Assembly: GCA_020439745.1 (NCBI GenBank)
Contig: JAGQSC010000015.1
Coordinates: forward strand, 62,001 to 126,000
Direction: 5' to 3'
DNA from: Acidobacteriota bacterium
Lineage (GTDB): Bacteria; Acidobacteriota; Holophagae; Acanthopleuribacterales; Acanthopleuribacteraceae
DNA length: 64,000 nucleotides
The position numbers were made by a program, and so were the translations under genes. Each line of letters opens with the position of its first letter. The first letter of the stretch is position 1. Shown here one piece after another: positions 31,701 to 46,546 of the stretch. The notes under the pieces were generated by a model. The model saw only the letters and a program-made list of their open reading frames with translations, was not told the origin of the DNA and ran no database searches.

Positions 31701-34700
31701 TTAAAGCGAACCATCGAGGAACGGCTCGGTCCAGCCAACGACGCCGAACACGTTGCCCAATTGGGCTGTCGTTTCCGGCGGCCGCTTTGCTTTTCCTTTG
31801 ATTGAAAATCCGCCTTCACCTCTAATGCTTGAATGGGCATTGATGACACCGTTGGTCACGGTAATCGGCGCGCGCACCGAACCAAATCCAAGAGCAGCTT
31901 GCAGGCCCGTATTGTCCGGGTCAGCTGGGTCAATGTCATCCAGACGGAACACATCGCGGAACAGATACAAGTTACCAGGATCGTCGGGGTCTGGATCACA
32001 GAAACTGAAGGTTTCACCGGTTGTGGTAGCCAGTACCAGCGATGAACCTACAAGTCTCGGTCGTGCGAATGCTTTGTGACCATCGGGGAGTTGGAAATCA
32101 CCCAAATAGGTCCAGGTTTGCACAGCCGCCGGGTCCGTATCGTGAATGTAGGCCACCAAGCGATTGGGCTCGCCACCCTCATCATCCACCAAAGGACTGT
32201 CACCACTTACGGCGACGACTAACGTCTTGCGTTCTGGCAGCGGCGCCACATTGGGTGTCAAGAAGAACCGCGCACCAGGGACACTCAAGGTCTGAACCAG
32301 GTTGAAATCCTTGAGCGATTGAGCGACCAGCAGGCCGTCCGAAGTCGCCGAATAAGACCAATCGACGTAACCGTTTTGATCTGAGTCAATCAACGCAGGC
32401 GCACCACCCATGGAACTACCGAAAGTACCCACATCCGTTCTGTCCAAGAGCGCGCCAGAATATGCATTCAAGTAATACATCGTGGCACGGTTTGTAGGTG
32501 AAGGTGTAATGCCTGAATTCATGGCCACGATCCACTCGGGACCTCCGGCCAACTCAGCCCATGCAATCGCGAGCGGGTGGATAATGTTGCCCATGGTCGG
32601 ATCAGTGAATTCCCACAAAGGCCGGGGATTATCCACCTGACTGATGTCGATGGCCCAAACCACATTACCTACGCGGCCATTTTCTGATCCACCGTTTTCG
32701 CCCTGAGCGACGACCGCCACACGACGCCATTCGGTTCCTTCACGAACCACGGCAACGATCGGTGTCGCATCGATCTTGGCAGAAACAGATTTCTTACCGG
32801 TTTTATTGTATTTAATATCTTCCAGCAGATTGTTGGGTATCATGCCCCAGACTTCTTCACCGGTTCCATAGTCGGTGTAACAACCATCTGCATAGGTATG
32901 AATGGGATCACATCGGCGACCCACCCAGGTGCCCGCATTGAGTGCGTGTAACATACCTGCCTCAGATCCCACCAGCACGCGGGTGGGCGTGTTCAATTGC
33001 GCAGGTTCTTGGACCCAATCAGAGTAGTCCTGTTTGATTTCAATTGGGACGCCCGTGCCAGTCAACCAGGTTGGAATACCGGGCGAACGAACGACTGCGA
33101 CGGTAGAGCGGTTAATCCCACCGAGCTTCCATTCACGTGGGTAACCGGGAATGGTCGTAACGCCATCCGAGATGGCTCCGTGGTACCCATAAACCCATTG
33201 GACCAACCAATCGGACGCAGGTACAGGCTCCAACGTCGAAGACGCTGGATTGTGGAAGTTGTCCGCCATGACGCCATCCACAATATCGTCCGAAAGTTCG
33301 AGTGCATTGATCACAGGAGGCGCAAGCCCAGGCGCAAAATCCTGGCGGACCAGCGAACCGAAAGCGTCCACAAATGTATAGATACGCCTATTCAACTGAT
33401 CACGCATGGCGATACCTGCATCCCAGAAAAACGGTTCACCAACACTGGGATCGCTGGAAGCTGAATCGAGAAAATCAAAACTGCTAGAGATGGTGTTCTC
33501 TGTCAGCGTGACACCGTGGTTGAATGAGTTAAACGCGTACATGTGGCCGCGATTCTTGCCCTTTTCCAGCCAGCCGAAGTCCGGCGTTTCCAAGGCACCG
33601 AAATAGTCCACATTGGAGCTGGAAATAACCGCAGAGTTAAAGAAGATATCGTGAACCAATGCCTCGTAGCCCACATCAGCCACCTCAACTTCTGGTACAA
33701 AAGTGTCTGAATCTGCCGTAGCCATCTCCACTTTCCAATAAAGTTCACGGGCACCTTCCTGATCTAGCTGTATGACTGCGTGGCGTGTGACCAAACCGTT
33801 GTCCACGGTTGTATCAAACACATCTGGCGTCCTCAGGTGCTCGCCACCGAGAAGGTAAATCCATTCCTGGTTTGAAGCCAGTCGGTAGGCGTAGTTGATG
33901 AACGTACCTTCCGTACCCCACAGATCATCGGTGAAATTATCCACGAATGTGAATTCAACCGTTGTAATGGAGACATCCTCAAACCGGTCTAGTCCGGTTG
34001 CAGCGTTCAAAGACTGTGCCGAACCGGAGGCTTCGCGCTTGACGTAGAACACCACGTCTTCATAGTCGCGGTCGCCACCGCCGTACAAATCCTCCCAACC
34101 TAACAGCCAGGCTTCGGGATCGGCCGAAGGTGCACCTACCATGAGGTGCGCCATGTTTCCGTTGATGGCACGGACGATTCCACTGTCACCTTCCGCACTC
34201 ATGTCGATACCATAGCGACCATTGATAATGGTATTGGCGTCAACTGGGGTTTCACTAAACCAGTCCGACAGACCTCGATACTGCACAATACGTTTGCTTG
34301 GGGTGAAGTTCTCCCATTTGTCGACCCATGCTTGATTGGCCGGATCAAAGGCTACCGGTGGCAATCCTTGAGTCACATCCACCACCTGATTCCAATCAAG
34401 ACCAAAAACAGCTTGGGCCAACAGGTTATGGTCGCCGACATTCTGATAGTTGGGGTACCAGTTCGTCCGGCCCGCCCAAGTACCGAAATTGTCGCCGGAA
34501 GTGGCACCATTGCGATTCGGCGTTGCCGGTGGGTTGTCCTGGTTAAACCCGGATTTGGAGTAGTAGGTGTTCACTTGCGATCCACCGCTTCCGTAAAAAA
34601 CCACCAAGAAGAAGGCGTACTCGCGGCCCCCCGAAACAGTCCCCTCGAACCATCGGTAGCGCCAGGCATTAATACCCATCGGATCCACAAATTTCACTTC

Positions 34701-35639
34701 GTCGGGAATCAGTGGGGAGGCCGAATTCGTTGTATTGTAGATGTCGTAATCAGGTCGCGCATTGGCGTTTCCGTAGATATCTGTAATGCCATAAGGCGCA
34801 TAATTTGAATAGGGTGATCCCACGTTGGTATCGCCATCATCGTCAGCCAATTTGAAAATCGTCGAACCGATCCAATGGAAATCGCCTGACGCGCCGGTTC
34901 CCGAGTAAAACCACCGCCCCAGAAGGCCCGGGAAATTATTATCGTTCCTGATGTGGTGTCGGGTGTTGTAGCCCTTGTTCAAGGCCATGGGCGGTATGCG
35001 ATTGAGACCGACACCGTATTCCAAAATATCGGGTACGTCGTTGTTGTTTTCATCGACATACAAATAGGCACCTGGATGTTCAAACTTACCACTGATGCGG
35101 TTTGAAGGTACAAACTCCCAGTAATCATTAGCGAAATTCCCAGCGGCTGCGGCGACCGCGCCATTTCGAAAAAGCGAAGGGTCCGCCGAATTGGTGACGC
35201 CCGCTGCAGCGGCATTGTCGGCCGTGTTCGGAATACCATCACCGTCGATATCGTCATCGTCCGCGTTGACGATGCCGTCTCCATCTAGGTCGTCGCGATC
35301 ACCGGTCTCGTAAAAATCGGGGAACCCGTTTTTGTTGGTATCGATATCCATAAAGAAGAAACCGAACAGGTGGTTGGCACCCGCACCCTCACTGAGGTAA
35401 TCCACCACAAATGGCTGATCCGTGGGGAATACAATCAAGTCCGTATTGATGGCACCACCTACGTCCGGGGCAATGGAATCACCAAACAAAAGGCCTTGTC
35501 CACCGCCGACAAAATCCGCGTCAGAAAATCCGCCATCGTTGTATTGAATGTTGTCGGTTGCGCAACGCGGCGCCTCTTCGTCCTGAGCCAAGGCGGTCCA
35601 GTTCACAAAAATCAAGATTAAAAGTGCGAATGTTTTCAT
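31701..35639 (-). CDS. PilY1-like type IV pilus tip adhesin with DUF4114 and calcium motifs
   Basis: The 1312-aa exported protein (signal peptide MKTFALLILIFVNWTALAQ; GGGAGG upstream of ATG 35639) has an N-terminal region with thrombospondin-3-like calcium loops (DLDGDG, DIDGDG, about 117-142) and a DUF4114 signature near 517-535 (DLYGGGDRDYEDVVFYVKR). The C-terminal PilY1/PilC-type beta-propeller (about 880-1300) includes VLVGSEAGMLHALNA and EVWGMIPNNLL. Its calcium loop DSDQNGYVD (about 1085-1093) matches the regulatory site of PilY1. PilY1 sits at the pilus tip with minor pilins and controls retraction and adhesion. It is the last gene of the fimT/pilV/pilW/pilX/pilY1 operon. Confidence 0.88.
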   Translation of the reverse strand: MKTFALLILIFVNWTALAQDEEAPRCATDNIQYNDGGFSDADFVGGGQGLLFGDSIAPDVGGAINTDLIVFPTDQPFVVDYLSEGAGANHLFGFFFMDIDTNKNGFPDFYETGDRDDLDGDGIVNADDDDIDGDGIPNTADNAAAAGVTNSADPSLFRNGAVAAAAGNFANDYWEFVPSNRISGKFEHPGAYLYVDENNNDVPDILEYGVGLNRIPPMALNKGYNTRHHIRNDNNFPGLLGRWFYSGTGASGDFHWIGSTIFKLADDDGDTNVGSPYSNYAPYGITDIYGNANARPDYDIYNTTNSASPLIPDEVKFVDPMGINAWRYRWFEGTVSGGREYAFFLVVFYGSGGSQVNTYYSKSGFNQDNPPATPNRNGATSGDNFGTWAGRTNWYPNYQNVGDHNLLAQAVFGLDWNQVVDVTQGLPPVAFDPANQAWVDKWENFTPSKRIVQYRGLSDWFSETPVDANTIINGRYGIDMSAEGDSGIVRAINGNMAHLMVGAPSADPEAWLLGWEDLYGGGDRDYEDVVFYVKREASGSAQSLNAATGLDRFEDVSITTVEFTFVDNFTDDLWGTEGTFINYAYRLASNQEWIYLLGGEHLRTPDVFDTTVDNGLVTRHAVIQLDQEGARELYWKVEMATADSDTFVPEVEVADVGYEALVHDIFFNSAVISSSNVDYFGALETPDFGWLEKGKNRGHMYAFNSFNHGVTLTENTISSSFDFLDSASSDPSVGEPFFWDAGIAMRDQLNRRIYTFVDAFGSLVRQDFAPGLAPPVINALELSDDIVDGVMADNFHNPASSTLEPVPASDWLVQWVYGYHGAISDGVTTIPGYPREWKLGGINRSTVAVVRSPGIPTWLTGTGVPIEIKQDYSDWVQEPAQLNTPTRVLVGSEAGMLHALNAGTWVGRRCDPIHTYADGCYTDYGTGEEVWGMIPNNLLEDIKYNKTGKKSVSAKIDATPIVAVVREGTEWRRVAVVAQGENGGSENGRVGNVVWAIDISQVDNPRPLWEFTDPTMGNIIHPLAIAWAELAGGPEWIVAMNSGITPSPTNRATMYYLNAYSGALLDRTDVGTFGSSMGGAPALIDSDQNGYVDWSYSATSDGLLVAQSLKDFNLVQTLSVPGARFFLTPNVAPLPERKTLVVAVSGDSPLVDDEGGEPNRLVAYIHDTDPAAVQTWTYLGDFQLPDGHKAFARPRLVGSSLVLATTTGETFSFCDPDPDDPGNLYLFRDVFRLDDIDPADPDNTGLQAALGFGSVRAPITVTNGVINAHSSIRGEGGFSIKGKAKRPPETTAQLGNVFGVVGWTEPFLDGSL

Positions 35640-35656
35640 GTTTGCCTCCCAGGGTC

Positions 35657-36373
35657 TCATGGCGTCCACGCCGTCATATCTTGGTTGGTGTCGCGAAACA
35701 GGTCGAGACTTGAATGCTCACCCAGGGATCCCCGACCGGTGTTGTCCTGGTCATAAGCACTACCCTCGGTGCCCACGTTCTGGGCAATCGATACTTCCGT
35801 AACGCCCGTAATACCCACAAGATGCGAAACCGTTGCGATGGGATTGACGTCACCTGCCTGGAAAATCTGAATGGTCATGACAATCTTCCCATCAGTATCC
35901 CAGCTTCCATCCATTTCATCCATGCCATCAAAAGGAACCACGCCTGTAAAGAAATAGGCAGGATCATCTGGATTGTTCTTCACATAAACCTTGTAGTCCA
36001 GGTCAATCACACCGGCATTCTGTGATACTTGACCTTCTGAGAATAGGATACCGTACTCCGAAAACTCGGGCGTGGCACTGAAGTTACCTTTCAACAGACC
36101 GCCAAAACGCCAATCGGGCATCACATCGGTTCGCACATCAAGCAAAGGCGGTGGTGAGACGGGCTGAATATAGTAGTCAGCCAAATTCGCCCTTAATTCG
36201 TTGAGAATCAATTCACCTGAGACGCGATAGTAGGTGTGCAATTTGACACCCGCATTCAATGTGGATTGGGAGCGTGTATCTACGGTAAATCCAATAATCA
36301 GAGTCAAAAAAATCAAGAGCGACAGCAAAACAACGATTAACGTGGCGCCGCGTTCATGGAGTGTATTTTTCAC
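35657..36373 (-). CDS. Minor pilin PilX-like protein
   Basis: The 238-aa protein starts at GTG 36373, 6 nt after AGGAG; the ATG at 36379 touches the SD and is unlikely. Its N-terminus 'HERGATLIVVLLSLLIFLTLIIGF' is the PilX pattern, with hydrophobic helix residues GATLI in place of FTLIE and no Glu5. The remainder is a soluble beta-rich head (GVPFDGMDEMDGSW-type loops). It lies between pilW and pilY1, exactly where PilX is found in other operons, and would form part of the tip/priming complex. Confidence 0.8.
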   Translation of the reverse strand: MKNTLHERGATLIVVLLSLLIFLTLIIGFTVDTRSQSTLNAGVKLHTYYRVSGELILNELRANLADYYIQPVSPPPLLDVRTDVMPDWRFGGLLKGNFSATPEFSEYGILFSEGQVSQNAGVIDLDYKVYVKNNPDDPAYFFTGVVPFDGMDEMDGSWDTDGKIVMTIQIFQAGDVNPIATVSHLVGITGVTEVSIAQNVGTEGSAYDQDNTGRGSLGEHSSLDLFRDTNQDMTAWTP

Positions 36374-36384
36374 GTTCATCTCCT

Positions 36385-37647
36385 TTAGAGATTGCCGATG
36401 GGCAAGTGTTGATTCTTGATGCGGAACTGATTGGCCATCGACCTTATTTTCGTGCCACCCGTTCCACCAGCACCGGTATCGGACGTGTCGGTCATCAGCG
36501 ATTCAAAGCTCACCGATGCCCGCACGGATACTGTATGCCGTCCCATATAGGCACGAGCTGAATCACGATCGGGATCTATGTCGTCCATGTCTGAGAACCA
36601 CGATGCGGGATCAGCTACCGAAACTGAGCCATCCCATCGATCGCCGGAACCAGGAACCACATCCAGTCCAACTTCCAAATCAAAAGCTGTTACGTTCGAG
36701 GCCAGAATCATGTCCACGCCGTTCTCTTCTCGAATCAATGTGTTTGCGTCTAATCGGTATGTCACCCGATGATAGGCAGCCTGGCGTCCCAACTTTCGAG
36801 CCAACCACGTGTCTCCAGCCGGTCGAATACGCCCTTTTTTTGAGCCATCGTCACTTTGGAGGAAATTCAGGGGACAGGAATAAAAAGGATCCGGCTCGGT
36901 ATAAGGAGTACGTACGTTACCACCAAAATCATTGACAAACACCGGACCACCGAGCGCCACTCGGACGGCCGATTCATAACAGACAAACTGAGGGTCGGGA
37001 TTGGTTTCTTCCCGATCGGCTACTTGAACCAGCATGGCTCCATTGCCTATACCACCATCGGTAAAGTGTGACTCATCGGTAAACGCTGTGGCACCCAACG
37101 AGTTGATGTACTGGTCAACTGAAACGTTATAAACGGCATTCACGCAGTAAATCAGTAAAATGTCTCCCGGCTGAAGGTTGGCCAGGCCCGGGTCGTTGGG
37201 GAGTGAACTCATTAAGATGAGGTTAGGTATGGCTGGCGGCCAAAGCTCAGGGCCAGTAGAGCCAGGCCAATCCACTACAAAAGTGGGGTTGGTGTCATCT
37301 CCACCTGCCAACATGTCATAGTCAAAATATTGAATCACAAATTCAGAGTTACCCGAATCGTCGTCAAGCGACGAGATCCCAAAAAACAGCTCTTCGCTGG
37401 TAAGCGTGGGGTTATTGAAGTGGATTTGAAGGGGGTTGAGGTCACCGACACCTTGGCTGGCCTTATACAGATCGTTTTGAAGAATCTGAAAAACGCCGCG
37501 AATGTTGTTGGTCAAATCCGAACTGCGCGCCGCATTGCGCGCCCCAGAATTGATCACGTTGAAGGCAGCGGCTACGCCGGCAATGACAATCAACGACAAG
37601 GCCATTCCGATCAGAATCTCAATTAATGTAAAAGCCTTTGATCTCAC
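36385..37647 (-). CDS. Minor pilin PilW-like protein
   Basis: The 420-aa prepilin-like protein has leader MRSKA followed by FTLIEILIGMALSLIVIAGVAAAF, a canonical type IV N-methylation motif with Glu5, and then a large soluble domain of about 390 residues with several Cys (LIYCVNAV, FVCYESA, FYSCPLNF). Size and position identify it as PilW-like. The GTG start overlaps the pilV stop as GTGA, implying coupled translation. It contributes to the minor-pilin complex that primes pilus assembly and carries PilY1. Confidence 0.85.
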   Translation of the reverse strand: MRSKAFTLIEILIGMALSLIVIAGVAAAFNVINSGARNAARSSDLTNNIRGVFQILQNDLYKASQGVGDLNPLQIHFNNPTLTSEELFFGISSLDDDSGNSEFVIQYFDYDMLAGGDDTNPTFVVDWPGSTGPELWPPAIPNLILMSSLPNDPGLANLQPGDILLIYCVNAVYNVSVDQYINSLGATAFTDESHFTDGGIGNGAMLVQVADREETNPDPQFVCYESAVRVALGGPVFVNDFGGNVRTPYTEPDPFYSCPLNFLQSDDGSKKGRIRPAGDTWLARKLGRQAAYHRVTYRLDANTLIREENGVDMILASNVTAFDLEVGLDVVPGSGDRWDGSVSVADPASWFSDMDDIDPDRDSARAYMGRHTVSVRASVSFESLMTDTSDTGAGGTGGTKIRSMANQFRIKNQHLPIGNL

Positions 37648-38120
37648 GGCCCACCCACCAGGTCTTCACCGTAGGTCTGCGCGATGGAGGCGTTGAGCAC
37701 GAACGCGAATTGGTTGGGGTCGGTCACATCTTTCCCATAACCGCCACGTTCAAATTCAGCGCGCCAACCAGTCCAATTCACGCGTATTTCCACTTGAACC
37801 AGGCTAGGCGAAGCCGCGATGACTTCAACCGAAGGCACATAGTAAACGCTGGGATCTGCCGGATCGGCGACAAAATTACCTTCAAAATCGGCATGAAAAC
37901 GATCGCCCATGGTCGGCGCAACCAATGCAATATCATCAAAATTGTGGCCATCCAATTCATCCAGAATGGCCTGAGCCACCATCATGGCAGCGGTGTCATT
38001 GCGGGAACTCGTAGCTTGGAAGATGGTCCGCTGGAAGGCAACAGCCAAACCCATGATACCCACCATCAAAATAACCAATGAAATCATCACCTCAATCAGT
38101 GAAAATGCTTGGTTGCGCAT
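37644..38120 (-). CDS. Minor pilin PilV-like protein
   Basis: The 158-aa prepilin starts at ATG 38120, whose A is also the last base of the preceding stop (TGATG); the longer frame to 38138 overlaps the upstream gene. MRNQA-FSLIEVMISLVILMVGIMGLAVAFQ is a PilV-type N-terminus (EVMISLVILMVGIMGLA). The C-terminal head is a short beta-rich domain. It is encoded second in the minor-pilin operon. Confidence 0.87.
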   Translation of the reverse strand: MRNQAFSLIEVMISLVILMVGIMGLAVAFQRTIFQATSSRNDTAAMMVAQAILDELDGHNFDDIALVAPTMGDRFHADFEGNFVADPADPSVYYVPSVEVIAASPSLVQVEIRVNWTGWRAEFERGGYGKDVTDPNQFAFVLNASIAQTYGEDLVGGP

Positions 38121-38707
38121 CAATCGATCCATTCCCAACCTCCACCAGCCTCGCGGATCGCCATCTTTACGTCGCCCAACATGGACACGTAGACAGCGCC
38201 GGCGAATCCATCGCTGTTCAATAGATAAAAGGCACCTTGTGCCGGGGCCCCAGCGTCAGCTCTCACTAAACCTGTCGGTGAAATGTAGAATCTGCCCGCT
38301 GGGAAGTCGTCAATGTCGTCTGCATGCCCGCTCCAATGGGAAATAGCCGGCACGTCACCTGAAGCCACAGTCGTTTGACGCACGCCCCGGTAATTGAAAG
38401 CTACAGGCGCGCCCAATGCTTCGCCTACTATTAATTCTTCGTCCTTGTCGCCAAACGTGCCGTCGCGGTCAATATCCGAAACCACATACATGCGGTCATT
38501 GCGGAAATTGAACTCCACGGGTAGCGAGTTGGCTATGGCCTGACCACGGGCCGTTTGAATGGAACCCTTAATGGCCATCAATTCTGCTGAAAGGTTGGAT
38601 TGACGCATCACCGTATCGGACATGCGAAATCCAATAAGCGCCAGGATTGATATCAAAACTAATACAATCCCAACTTCTAACATGCTGTAAGCGCGTTTAG
38701 TCTGCAT
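38120..38707 (-). CDS. Minor pilin FimT/GspH-like protein
   Basis: The 195-aa prepilin starts at ATG 38707, with GGAGG 5 nt upstream. The leader QTKRA precedes YSMLEVGIVLVLISILALIGF, with Glu5 kept and Tyr in place of Phe1. The body has the FimT/GspH arrangement: an extended helix (MAIKGSIQTARGQAIANSLPVEFNF) and then beta-strands with ISPTGLVRADAGA. It is the first gene of the operon and lies directly downstream of a -24/-12 sigma-54 promoter. Confidence 0.85.
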   Translation of the reverse strand: MQTKRAYSMLEVGIVLVLISILALIGFRMSDTVMRQSNLSAELMAIKGSIQTARGQAIANSLPVEFNFRNDRMYVVSDIDRDGTFGDKDEELIVGEALGAPVAFNYRGVRQTTVASGDVPAISHWSGHADDIDDFPAGRFYISPTGLVRADAGAPAQGAFYLLNSDGFAGAVYVSMLGDVKMAIREAGGGWEWID

Positions 38708-38730
38708 TGGTGCCTCCGGTACCCTATAGA

Positions 38731-38746
38731 GCAAGAGCAATACCAG
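38731..38746 (-). promoter_or_regulatory. Sigma-54 promoter of the minor-pilin operon
   Basis: On the minus strand CTGGTATTGCTCTTGC has GG (38744-38743), 10 bp, then GC (38732-38731), with a perfect TTGC at -12. The -24 element TGGTAT is weaker than TGGCAC. The predicted start near 38719 would leave only a short leader containing the GGAGG of the fimT-like gene. Confidence 0.5.
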
Positions 38747-38844: not shown

Positions 38845-40950
38845 CTACATGCGCTCAAGTGGTGGAATGCCCAAAAGGTGCAAGCCAGTCGCCAAAATTT
38901 CACCTGTTGCGCGGACCAAATTGGCCCGCGCGGCTTTCAAAGGCACAGTATCGGCGCGCAGGACCGAACACTGGTCAAACATGCGGCTGAACGCCCGCGC
39001 AAGGTCGTAAAGATAAGCGCACAGTTCTCGGGGTCGATGACCTTCTCGAGTGGAGGCAACCACGTCCTGGAACCGACCCAATTGATCGATTAACTGGCCT
39101 TCCGCCTCGTGGCTCAACAAGGTGTAATCAGCGCTTAAGACGTCCCAGGTACCCACCTTTTTGAGAATGGATTGGGTCCGCGCATAGGCGTACATCAAGT
39201 AGGGGCCCGTATTACCGGTTTGGGAGGTCCATTCCTCCAAATCGAAGACAATCATGCGATTGTGGTCCTGATTCAACATGCCGTATTTGATGGTGGCGAT
39301 AGCAATAGCGTGGGCGGCATCGTCGATTTCACGGTCGGACCAGTCTCCTCGATATTTTTCCAAGAATTCGGATTTGATCCGCTGATCCAACAGTTCGCGC
39401 AGCTGTGAAAACAAAATCACGTTTCCGGCGCGCGAACTCATCTTTCCATCACGAAGAACCACCAATCCGTACGCGAGGTGGTAACACTGTTTCGCCTGTT
39501 CAAAACCCATTAACTCCAGAGTTTTGAACACCTGCTGAAAGTGGAGTGACTGGGACACATCCACCACATAGATGGACTCGTCGATACCAAACTCATCAAA
39601 TTTGCGCCTGGCTAAGGCTAGATCCTTGGTCGCATACAAACCCGTGCCATCCGACTTGAGCAGCATCAGAAATGGCAGTCCTTCCAATTCGGCACCCACG
39701 GTTCCCTGAGATCGAACGAGCACACCTTTTTGCAGGTATTCCTCCACCATTGCCTTGCCTTCATCGCCCACGTCAGATTCAAAAAAGAAGTGATCAAAGT
39801 GGCAATCCAGCCATTGGTAAATTTCATAGAACTCATCCATGGACCACTGCTTGGTCTTTTGCCAAAGGGCGGTGATTTCTGGTTCTCCCGATTCAAGTCG
39901 CTTTAAGGTCTCAGACACCTCATTCAGCCGCTGCTGCATGGTGCCGGCCACGTTCTCATTTGGCTTGCGGGCAAACACATCGGCAATAGGGGTGCCAACA
40001 GATATCGTAGGTTCAAGCACAAAAACGGCCTCACGATTATCGTTCAGACCGAGCTCCGCACCGCTAAGGATCATCCCCTCACTGAGGACACCGTCCTTAT
40101 CAACACGTTCGATGACCCGGCCTCCGACGCGTGACCCTAGCGACGCATAAGCCACACGGTCACCTACTTCGAAGCCAGTACCCCCACAAACTACAAGACA
40201 GGTTTCGTGCCCCAAATCCAAGGTCACAACCGTCCATTCAGGTCGTGATGGGTGCTGGTCCTTTTCCATCACTTGTGCCACATGAACCCCAAGCAGGGGA
40301 CAACGCGTTAGCAAATCAAAGTCCAATAACTCAGTCGCTTTGAAGTAAAGCGTCCCCAAGAATTCCCCGCGATGCTGCTCGGGGATTTCCCCACTGAAAT
40401 GACGTTCCAGGTACCATAAACATTTGGCAATATGGGTCCCGACGTCTCCAATGTAGTTGGCGGCCACGACTGGAAAACCGCACCAGCGATAAATTCGCAC
40501 CAACGCATCACCCAGTGCCACGTTGCGCATGTGCCCAACATGAAAGGCCTTATGGGTATTGGGCTGCGAATACTCAATCATGACGCGGTGATCGATGCGC
40601 GCACGAGGCTTAGTAAACGAGCCGTCCATGATCTGCGGGATCAAGCTCTTTGCCTGGCCAGCTCGATTGATGCGCGCATTGAGATAGGGACCCACCTGAC
40701 TGACTTCGGCAATCATGGGTTCCGAGTCGACCACATCCCGCAGCCCATCAATGAGTGCTGCCGCAATCACAGCTGGCGGCTTGCGCAACGGTTTGGCCAA
40801 TCTAAAACAAGGGAACGCGAGATCGCCTAGTTCCCGATCTTTGGGTGCCTCGACCCATGAGGCCACCAAATCCACATCTCCCTCAAATTCAGGATGGTAT
40901 GCTTGAATTACAGCCAGTAGATGTTTCGCGAATATGTGCTCAAAAGACAT
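38845..40950 (-). CDS. argS: Arginyl-tRNA synthetase with inserted tRNA-binding OB fold
   Basis: The 701-aa class I enzyme charges tRNA-Arg. ATG 40950 is chosen (GGAGG 6 nt upstream). Visible parts are the N-terminal Add-1 domain, HVGH of the HIGH box (137-140, EYSQPNTHKAFHVGHMRN), a KMSSR box (503-507), and the C-terminal DALR domain (GNTGPYLMYAYARTQSI onward). Unlike usual bacterial ArgRS (about 550-590 aa), residues about 218-328 form an extra module with EMAP-II/PheT-type tRNA_bind features: 'QHPSRPEWTVVTLDLG', CLVVCGG, 'VGDRVAYASLGSRVGG', SEGMILSGAELGL. The insert lies between HIGH and KMSK, so it probably adds a general tRNA-docking surface. The rest of the enzyme looks intact. Confidence 0.95.
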   Translation of the reverse strand: MSFEHIFAKHLLAVIQAYHPEFEGDVDLVASWVEAPKDRELGDLAFPCFRLAKPLRKPPAVIAAALIDGLRDVVDSEPMIAEVSQVGPYLNARINRAGQAKSLIPQIMDGSFTKPRARIDHRVMIEYSQPNTHKAFHVGHMRNVALGDALVRIYRWCGFPVVAANYIGDVGTHIAKCLWYLERHFSGEIPEQHRGEFLGTLYFKATELLDFDLLTRCPLLGVHVAQVMEKDQHPSRPEWTVVTLDLGHETCLVVCGGTGFEVGDRVAYASLGSRVGGRVIERVDKDGVLSEGMILSGAELGLNDNREAVFVLEPTISVGTPIADVFARKPNENVAGTMQQRLNEVSETLKRLESGEPEITALWQKTKQWSMDEFYEIYQWLDCHFDHFFFESDVGDEGKAMVEEYLQKGVLVRSQGTVGAELEGLPFLMLLKSDGTGLYATKDLALARRKFDEFGIDESIYVVDVSQSLHFQQVFKTLELMGFEQAKQCYHLAYGLVVLRDGKMSSRAGNVILFSQLRELLDQRIKSEFLEKYRGDWSDREIDDAAHAIAIATIKYGMLNQDHNRMIVFDLEEWTSQTGNTGPYLMYAYARTQSILKKVGTWDVLSADYTLLSHEAEGQLIDQLGRFQDVVASTREGHRPRELCAYLYDLARAFSRMFDQCSVLRADTVPLKAARANLVRATGEILATGLHLLGIPPLERM

Positions 40951-43706: not shown

Positions 43707-44471
43707 CTATGTGGCACCATCCAAGTAAAGCCACGAAAACCCCGTCTTGGTTTCAATCTCTTGGAAAGGAGAGAATCGAGGTTTGCTCGAATCACAAAAT
43801 TGGTGAAAATAGGTGGGATGGCCAGCCGCAATAACACGTTCTTGCGGGACACGCGCCTTTTGTAAACAGGCTTGCGCCTTGCGGCCCCATGCAACAAACC
43901 AGACATGAGTCATCTCAGAAAGCGCGCGCAATAAACTTGTGGTCCAAGCGCGCCAAAACTTATGATGGGCACGGCGATCCCCATGGCTGGTGTACGTCAA
44001 AGAAGCATTCATTAGTAACACGCCCTGTTGCATCCAGTAGCGAAACAAGTCCGTCGGCGTGCCAGCCCGACCACGCAATCGAGTTCTCACTTCACAAAGC
44101 GGCGTTCCGTATTCGGCAAATCCATGGTTAATCGCCAGTGCCTTGAGAATATTCCCCGAACAATTGCCAGCAATTGGCTGATCCCAGGTCAGGTGCTGAC
44201 GATCCCAGAAGGCGACCCCACACGCACTGGTCACACGCGGATAGGGTTCTTCTCCCAGCAAAACAACTTTGATACGTTCGGGTGGCACCCAATGAAACGC
44301 GTTAAATACCAAAGGTGCAACTGGACACAATTCAGAGCGACCCATCCATTGGCTGATATCGAGCGCCGGTGCCAACTGCCGCCACGCCTTAGGCCAATCA
44401 GGCCTGCCAAGCGCCCATTGCTCATGTTCTACCGGCCATAAACTGAATGGCAATTCATTTTCACCTTGCAT
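43707..44471 (-). CDS. Divergent uracil-DNA glycosylase (family 1-like) with altered catalytic box
   Basis: The 254-aa protein aligns by eye with Ung-type glycosylases along its length: 'RIKVVLLGEEPYP' (73-78), GVAFWD, 'VLLMNASLTYTSHGDRRAHHKFW' with the uracil-reading Asn155, 'VWFVAWGRKAQ', and a HPT at 218-220. The water-activating motif GQDPYH reads GEEPYP, so the catalytic Asp is Glu and the following His is Pro. The HPSPL loop is HPTYF, losing the minor-groove Leu. It could be a glycosylase with changed activity, a lesion- or uracil-binding protein, or an inactive paralogue. It is followed closely by trpS. Confidence 0.85.
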   Translation of the reverse strand: MQGENELPFSLWPVEHEQWALGRPDWPKAWRQLAPALDISQWMGRSELCPVAPLVFNAFHWVPPERIKVVLLGEEPYPRVTSACGVAFWDRQHLTWDQPIAGNCSGNILKALAINHGFAEYGTPLCEVRTRLRGRAGTPTDLFRYWMQQGVLLMNASLTYTSHGDRRAHHKFWRAWTTSLLRALSEMTHVWFVAWGRKAQACLQKARVPQERVIAAGHPTYFHQFCDSSKPRFSPFQEIETKTGFSWLYLDGAT

Positions 44472-44677
44472 TGACGTCCGATTCCAGCTAGATTTTTGCC
44501 CGGGAACTCTCTAAACTACGAGGCGAATCACGGGTTTGCTTCCGCGTTTGAGCATAACCCGAAACCGTAAGCGGTCATCCTTATTAACCGCAGAGATTAA
44601 CAAAAAGCCGCGCGCTCGAATGATCAGCACGATTGGATAGGTGGGACGCGTCCGGCACAAAGACTCGGAGGAATTCG

Positions 44678-46546
44678 ATGAGTAAAGTGAACATTGCATG
44701 TCTGATTGCGCCCATGATTGACACAGAAGGGCCCATGAATGTCAGCGGCAACGCACGTCTGGACGGCGCCAAGCGCATCATTGGTAAATATGGTGAAATC
44801 GCACTTGAAACAGCGATTACGTTTGGCACGGAACACCCCAATCAGATCCATTTGGACTTACTCAGTGTGGGTGACGAAAAGTCCGTTACGGCCATTCAAC
44901 AGAACGCCATTGCCATGATACAACCCGCCGCCCATCCAGGAACATTGGGTGTCCACGCCCTAAACGTTGACAATCTGGATGACCTGGACCCGTACGCAGT
45001 CGCCGAAATGCTGGTGGGCATGATCCAGAAGCTGGAAAACAAACCGGATCTGATTTTTGTCGGCCGCGAGTCATTTGACTACGCCCATGGCATTGTAGGA
45101 CCCACGATCGCACAAAGCCTGGGCATGCCCTTTTATTCAGGAATTTGTGAAATCGCATTTAACAGCGATTTCGAATCGGTGACCGCCACCTTCCAACAGG
45201 GCAATGACAAATTGGTCTATGACGTGCCACTCCCCGCAGTGTTTGGAACGACCGACTGGCTCAATGGCAAAGACAGTGCCCGCTTTACGTCTTTAAAAGG
45301 CGTCATGATGGCTAAGCGCTTCCAGCGCAACATCATGTCGCTGTCTGAACTAGGCGTATCTCAAGAAGGGAACAAGACCCAGATCCTTGGCATTGAACCC
45401 GTCAAATCTGATCGCAAAAACCGTCGCTTGGAAGATGGAGAAGCCGCAGACAAAGTGACACAAGCTATGAATTGGATGGTGCAAGAAGACAAAGCACTGT
45501 CTATTGGTTCTTCTGGCGGCAGTGGATCCCAAGGGGATGCCACCGTCCAATGGACCGACTCATCAAATATATCGGTAGAGGGTGAAATCCTACTCATCGC
45601 TGATCACGATAACAGCCATCTGCACCGGTCCACCTTGCAAGCGATCCAGGCACTCAAATCCGTGGTCGAAAAGAGTGGCAAACAAATCACGCTTGCACTA
45701 CTTTCCCAAGACCATAGCAAGGTTGGGGGACTCACGGGCTTGGACGTAGCCAAAGTGGTTGGCATGAGCGCACCAGACTTTGAACGGCCTTCGATCGCTG
45801 CAGTCATCAACGCAATCAAACCACTTGGCCAACCGGCAATCGTGGCCGTGGTTGCTGATGACTTTGGCCGTGATTTTGCCGCGGCATTTGCTGCCGCCCA
45901 TGGAGGCGCGGCTCTGCAAGACACGGTAGATCTTGACTGGGCTGACGGCCGTTTGGTGAGCCATCGTATCGTCTCCAACGCCCGTTTTGTGGTTCAGGAA
46001 GCCATTGTTCCAGGTGTGGTAGTCCAAGTTGCCAGCATTCGCGCAACCGCCTTCGACCCCGCCGAACCGACAGGGTCACCCCAATATCTACAAACCCAGG
46101 CGCCAGCGTTTGACGCTCAAGCAACTGTCAAAGAGTTTGTGGCCGGTGTCGCTGCCAAAGGTATTCCCCTTAACGAGGCACGTATTGTCATCGCAGGTGG
46201 AAGGGGCATGAAGGGTGCCGAGAACTTCAACCATCTCTACGAATTGGCTGATCTCTTGGGCGGTGCCGTGGGTGCATCCCGTGCTGTTACCGATCTGGGA
46301 TGGGTACCTCACAACCTCCAAATCGGTCAGACTGGTACTACGGTCGCGCCTGATGTCTATATTGCCATCGGTATTTCAGGAGCGATCCAGCACCTGACAG
46401 GCATGTTGGATTCCAAATACATCGTCGCCATCAATTCAGATGCTGAAGCGCCGATCCATCAGCATGCCGATATCTCCATTATCGATAAGTGGGAAAACGT
46501 GATGGGACCTCTGGTGGAAGCTTTTAGAAGCGCTTTAGGCAAGTAA
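44678..46546 (+). CDS. Fused electron transfer flavoprotein EtfB-EtfA
   Basis: The single 622-aa polypeptide joins both ETF subunits. ATG 44678 has GGAGG 6 nt upstream. Residues about 1-270 match the beta subunit ([10 protein letters not shown]..., [25 protein letters not shown]). A Gly/Ser-rich linker lies near 285-300. Residues about 305-622 match the alpha subunit, with the FAD-binding GGRGMKG (507-513), [22 protein letters not shown] and '[15 protein letters not shown]'. ETF passes electrons from flavin dehydrogenases to ETF:quinone oxidoreductase, or works in bifurcation with NADH. Two separate genes are the rule. A terminator follows directly. Confidence 0.92.

Follow-up and report, generated by a model that had tools for sequence, protein, structure and literature searches.

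EMAP-type OB folds of the tRNA_bind superfamily (PF01588) are known as protein tails, as free proteins or within PheT, the beta subunit of the class II phenylalanyl-tRNA synthetase (PheRS). In Trbp111, the MetRS C-terminal domain, Arc1p and EMAPII the domain is terminal or stands alone, and those of Trbp111 and MetRS dimerise. In PheRS the B2 domain is an internal insertion in B1, not a terminal tail. The canonical class I arginyl-tRNA synthetases (ArgRSs) of yeast (1F7U), E. coli (5B63) and N. gonorrhoeae (6AO8) are without such a domain and have a short Ins-1 loop, in a region that lies near the tRNA acceptor arm in the yeast complex; their N-terminal domain reads position 20 of tRNA-Arg in the known complexes. 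Arginine activation by ArgRS requires tRNA, including A76 (PMC9976931). Trbp111 grips the 3' CA end of tRNA through S82, M85, R75, I77, F78 and K33, of which R75, K33 and F78 are the most harmful to binding when lost, and a Ser/Met site holds A76 in both Trbp111 and Arc1p (PMC11286949). In B. subtilis, YtpR, which is a separate protein, forms a complex with GatB according to crosslinking (PMC10090944). In the 2024 AARS Online domain table, MetRS, PheRS beta and TyrRS are the enzymes entered with the EMAP-type OB; ArgRS is not among them.

Here we describe an ArgRS with a domain of this superfamily between its HIGH and KMSKS halves, encoded in a window of 64,000 nucleotides (the whole stretch of DNA that was analysed) from an Acidobacteriota bacterium of the family Acanthopleuribacteraceae. 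The preliminary description of this DNA had stated that no ArgRS was known to carry the domain inside its catalytic region; the AARS Online table and our full-text searches of open-licence papers agree with it, and in that literature the insert-bearing subfamily was found nowhere.

The argS product and its inserted domain

The argS product (Table 1) matches the full-length class I ArgRS profile TIGR00456 at 374 bits (NCBIfam cut-off 262), carries the complete Pfam set PF03485, PF00750 and PF05746, and is the single ArgRS match in a genome that is 97% complete. Its N-terminal, catalytic, KMSKS and DALR regions all match those of the canonical enzymes. The HVGH and KMSSR motifs lie at the residues given in the preliminary description, which had left out the strand (minus). 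The tRNA-Arg genes of the same genome comprise five anticodons and have the usual A20, C35 and A73. Judged from its sequence, the protein is a catalytically complete ArgRS, predicted to charge tRNA-Arg. Rfam gave no match around argS.

Table 1. Features of the argS locus, in window coordinates
Feature	Residues	Coordinates	Strand	Basis or remark
argS, arginyl-tRNA synthetase (ArgRS), 701 aa		38845..40950	minus	Sole ArgRS of the genome; start ATG at 40950, stop ends at 38845; second in-frame ATG two codons upstream
ArgRS N-terminal domain, PF03485	19-93	40672..40896	minus	Pfam
HIGH motif, HVGH	137-140	40531..40542	minus	Invariant among 15 homologues
Insert, between helix 194-208 and helix 334-353	about 209-332	39955..40326	minus	Alignment with insert-free sister ArgRS, and DSSP
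tRNA_bind OB domain, PF01588, PheT-B2/YtpR type	222-320	39991..40287	minus	Pfam, NCBIfam, domain tree, Foldseek
Putative remodelled 3'-end pocket segment, KDGVLSEG (K285, G287, S290, G292)	285-292	40075..40098	minus	S290 corresponds to Trbp111 S82
KMSKS motif, KMSSR	503-507	39430..39444	minus	Conserved among 15 homologues
DALR anticodon-binding domain, PF05746	585-701	38848..39198	minus	Pfam

The Pfam match to the ArgRS catalytic domain is split, and a tRNA_bind match sits in the gap. PF01588 scored 31.9 bits on the whole protein (E 1.4e-7) and 37.1 bits on the segment alone (E 3.3e-9), both above the gathering cut-off of 27 bits, and was found in 15/15 homologues at E <= 0.01; the top NCBIfam families of the segment were PheT (6e-17) and YtpR (6e-12). 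The nearest relatives of the enzyme are insert-free ArgRSs of Bdellovibrionota, up to about 49% identical over residues 343-701, and in alignment with these the insert of about 120 residues stands where they have a loop of about 8-10 residues. The helix before it closes the GEFLGxLYxxATELLD segment and the helix after it is EVSxxLKxLE. The extra segment noticed earlier between the HIGH and KMSSR boxes is confirmed, with the refined limits given in Table 1. PMC10810186 lists a helical insertion module specific to ArgRS, and the insertion point falls inside it. The same insert is present at the same point in all 15 aligned proteins, among them those of the complete Sulfidibacter corallicola chromosome and the Acanthopleuribacter pedis isolate genome; the isolate genomes, together with 29 distinct sequences, rule out an assembly artefact or contamination.

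AlphaFold2, run with 15 homologues, modelled the whole protein at a mean pLDDT of 90, with about 94-97 across most of the insert. Foldseek searches of the PDB with this model retrieved ArgRSs, yeast ArgRS with tRNA (1F7U) first, and for the insert region PheRS beta (4P71, 1.8 Å over 111 columns) and YtpR (1.6 Å over 106 columns, with 32% identity in the structure match). Modelled in isolation (pLDDT 94), the domain matched the B2 domain of PheRS beta with a TM of 0.84, at 1.6-1.9 Å and about 30% identity; its best structural matches were all PheRS beta and YtpR, and the TM against Trbp111 and MetRS-C was about 0.6. The insert is an OB fold, as the preliminary description had supposed, and belongs to the PheT kind.

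Several neighbouring genes of the window are recorded here in their own right. A single 637-aa protein at 44633-46546 has halves that match ETF beta and ETF alpha, a fused EtfB-EtfA. The uracil-DNA glycosylase-like protein at 43707-44471 scores far below the family cut-offs and has GEEPYP in place of the usual GQDPYH; it is possibly a divergent or inactive UNG. Downstream of argS on the same strand, positions 31701-38740 hold pilin-like genes (two with an N_methyl signature) and a gene for a 1322-aa DUF4114 protein; the region resembles a cluster of type IV minor pilins.

Distribution and origin of the insert-bearing ArgRS

The insert was found in all seven sampled genomes of Acanthopleuribacteraceae, including the cultured S. 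corallicola and A. pedis. No carrier was found among the other sampled members of the class or phylum, and a further scan gave 2/396, both from the genus of the window genome. Outside the phylum, carriers occur in 10 of 369 sampled Bdellovibrionota genomes (the phylum of a Bdellovibrionaceae MAG), most other genomes of that phylum with close matches having the insert-free sister enzyme, in 3 of 246 from the phylum of a Planctomycetota MAG, and in 9 of the 46 genomes of a small further phylum. In total there are 29 distinct insert-bearing sequences from about four phyla (the window genome and at least 28 other sampled genomes); the contig scan used two peptide patterns only and may have missed further carriers. 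The viral contigs yielded no relative of this ArgRS. The insert-bearing enzyme is the sole ArgRS found in 8/9 distant carriers. These data establish a real, rare subfamily spread over several phyla and too patchy to be a widespread feature of ArgRS, a possibility that the preliminary description had left to a survey. A further, distant ArgRS-like gene with no matching insert is present in two carriers (G004:C40:4185-5192 and G415:C149:2121-3620, frames of 624 and 630 aa), where contamination is possible; in one carrier MAG (L060, G682:C430:12406-14519) the ArgRS is split over two overlapping frames, by a frameshift or a sequencing error.

In an ArgRS tree built without the insert columns, a single branch (SH-aLRT 99) sets the 29 carriers apart, with the insert-free Bdellovibrionota enzymes as their neighbours. 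In a tree of tRNA_bind domains all 29 inserts group in a single clade (99/97) next to PheT-B2/YtpR (100/99), apart from the MetRS, Trbp111/Trbp-like and CsaA domains of the same genomes. The earlier assignment to an EMAP-II/PheT-type domain is thus narrowed to the PheT-B2/YtpR branch, as distinct from the MetRS/Trbp111 branch; an origin of the latter type is ruled out by the domain tree and the fold scores. The tRNA_bind superfamily had been named rightly, but the PheT copy, being internal in B1, is not the terminal extension that the preliminary description had made it. The window genome has three tRNA_bind proteins in total, the other two being a free-standing Trbp-like protein and a MetRS that has the domain at its C terminus (L001, G000:C16:146778-147062; L002, G000:C58:252347-252607).

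The window ArgRS is 47-55% identical to carriers of other phyla, compared with 29-36% to its own class outside the family. An AU test did not exclude vertical descent in Acanthopleuribacteraceae (p 0.22), owing to the great distance of the Holophagae outgroup, and the argument for horizontal transfer is therefore made from this identity contrast and the patchy distribution. The simplest account would be a single insertion event, after which the gene was transferred as a whole. We regard the fold, position and history of the insert as close to certain.

The PheT of the window genome (L130, G000:C51:88385-90271), like that of other Holophagae (L131, L132, L134, L128), starts at about profile position 157-161, the N-terminal region with B2 being missing. 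A domain swap, in which ArgRS acquired the B2 that the host PheT had lost, would fit the absence of the first ~157 profile positions, B2 included, from the Acanthopleuribacteraceae PheT. The distribution contradicts it, since an insert-free genome of the same class (G008) also lacks that region of PheT, the Bdellovibrionota carriers G410-G412 retain a full PheT, and one insert clade is common to all carriers; we consider such a swap extremely improbable.

Pocket residues and candidate roles of the domain

The insert is under purifying selection, with a low dN/dS (0.13/1.39 in the nearest pair), but no part of the enzyme is less conserved: its mean identity among carriers is about 35%, and that of the catalytic halves 57-62%. 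S290, the equivalent of S82 in Trbp111, is invariant in 29/29 inserts, as are G287, G292 and E299. The M85 position is hydrophobic in every insert (Met, Leu, Val or Phe; M in 17) and the I77 position is Lys or Arg in 26 of them. The R75 and F78/Arg positions vary and K33 is kept in 8/29; the Arg that PheT has at the F78 position (10/10) is gone from the ArgRS insert together with the ADK motif. Two basic positions are specific to the inserts, R278 (Arg in 26, Lys in 3) and K285 (Lys in 20, Arg in 6), and the mean net charge is -3.7, versus about +1 in Trbp-like proteins. The 3'-CA pocket appears to have been remodelled, being neither intact nor simply erased.

We propose that an OB domain of PheT-B2/YtpR type was inserted once into the loop of the Ins-1 helical module, between the HIGH and KMSKS halves, and that the chimeric argS then spread horizontally among Bdellovibrionota, Acanthopleuribacteraceae and at least two other phyla. 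The domain would lie close to where the tRNA acceptor arm enters and would touch the acceptor end of tRNA-Arg at an additional point through the remodelled pocket (the invariant Ser, the hydrophobic Met/Leu/Val and the new Lys/Arg), which may help to seat the tRNA 3' end or hand it over in an enzyme whose activation of arginine depends on bound tRNA. That contact with the acceptor end is what the insert does has, in our estimate, about an even chance of being right; the tRNA contact, the part contacted and the catalytic effect are all proposed from the pocket residues and the position of the domain. Against it stand the loss of the R75, K33 and F78/Arg counterparts and the negative mean charge; moreover, we know of no established tRNA contact by the B2 domain of PheRS. 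The whole account, with single insertion, gene transfer and acceptor-end contact by the remodelled pocket, we hold to be evenly balanced between true and false. A more specific version seems unlikely to us: the OB domain could be a second, non-catalytic site for the 3' end of tRNA-Arg, where A76 is parked or from which it is passed on, so that arginine activation depends on tRNA in an altered way; it would be placed like the CP1 of Ile/Val/LeuRS but without editing.

The same residues bear on other readings. The cis-acting, non-specific tRNA docking suggested in the preliminary description is doubtful, as the 3'-end pocket is only partly conserved and the insert mildly acidic. A Trbp111-like capture of any tRNA at its 3' CA end would suit a member of the same superfamily in which the counterparts of S82 and M85 are mostly kept; it is doubtful because the remaining pocket residues (the R75, K33 and F78/Arg counterparts) have changed and the average charge of the insert is negative, and we give it little probability. 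The acidic charge and the lost basic residues would sit more easily with a protein-docking or dimerisation module by which ArgRS would pair with itself or with a different protein of translation, and the nearest stand-alone relative, YtpR, is complexed with GatB (PMC10090944), Foldseek matching the insert to YtpR in a YtpR-GatB model. If only a distant protein surface mattered, however, the invariant Ser and Gly of the nucleotide pocket would be unexpected; we rate such docking as plausible, though not probable.

The domain might also be a structural passenger, compact and with its ends close together in a tolerant loop, kept only since its loss would disturb folding. The low identity of the insert, the unchanged catalytic scaffold and the degraded donor-type pocket are as a passenger would have them. 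Yet the insert is retained in 29/29 clade members, with no loss seen among the sampled genomes of four phyla, it evolves under purifying selection and a few of its pocket positions are invariant, and we think a mere passenger rather unlikely. Compensation for an odd tRNA-Arg is ruled out for the window genome: the tRNA-Arg genes are ordinary, so there is no identity defect for the insert to compensate.

Implications for ArgRS and its hosts

An EMAP-type OB domain here sits in the catalytic region of a class I synthetase, fixed in a family and carried between phyla within an essential single-copy gene. It is a natural experiment in how synthetases acquire modules for tRNA binding, set in an enzyme whose amino-acid activation depends on tRNA. 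The insert is also an annotation warning, because generic ArgRS models pass over the OB domain, and a marker of gene transfer among Acidobacteriota and Bdellovibrionota. With cultured hosts in S. corallicola and A. pedis, and with the insert-free sister enzymes as matched controls, the role of the domain is directly measurable.
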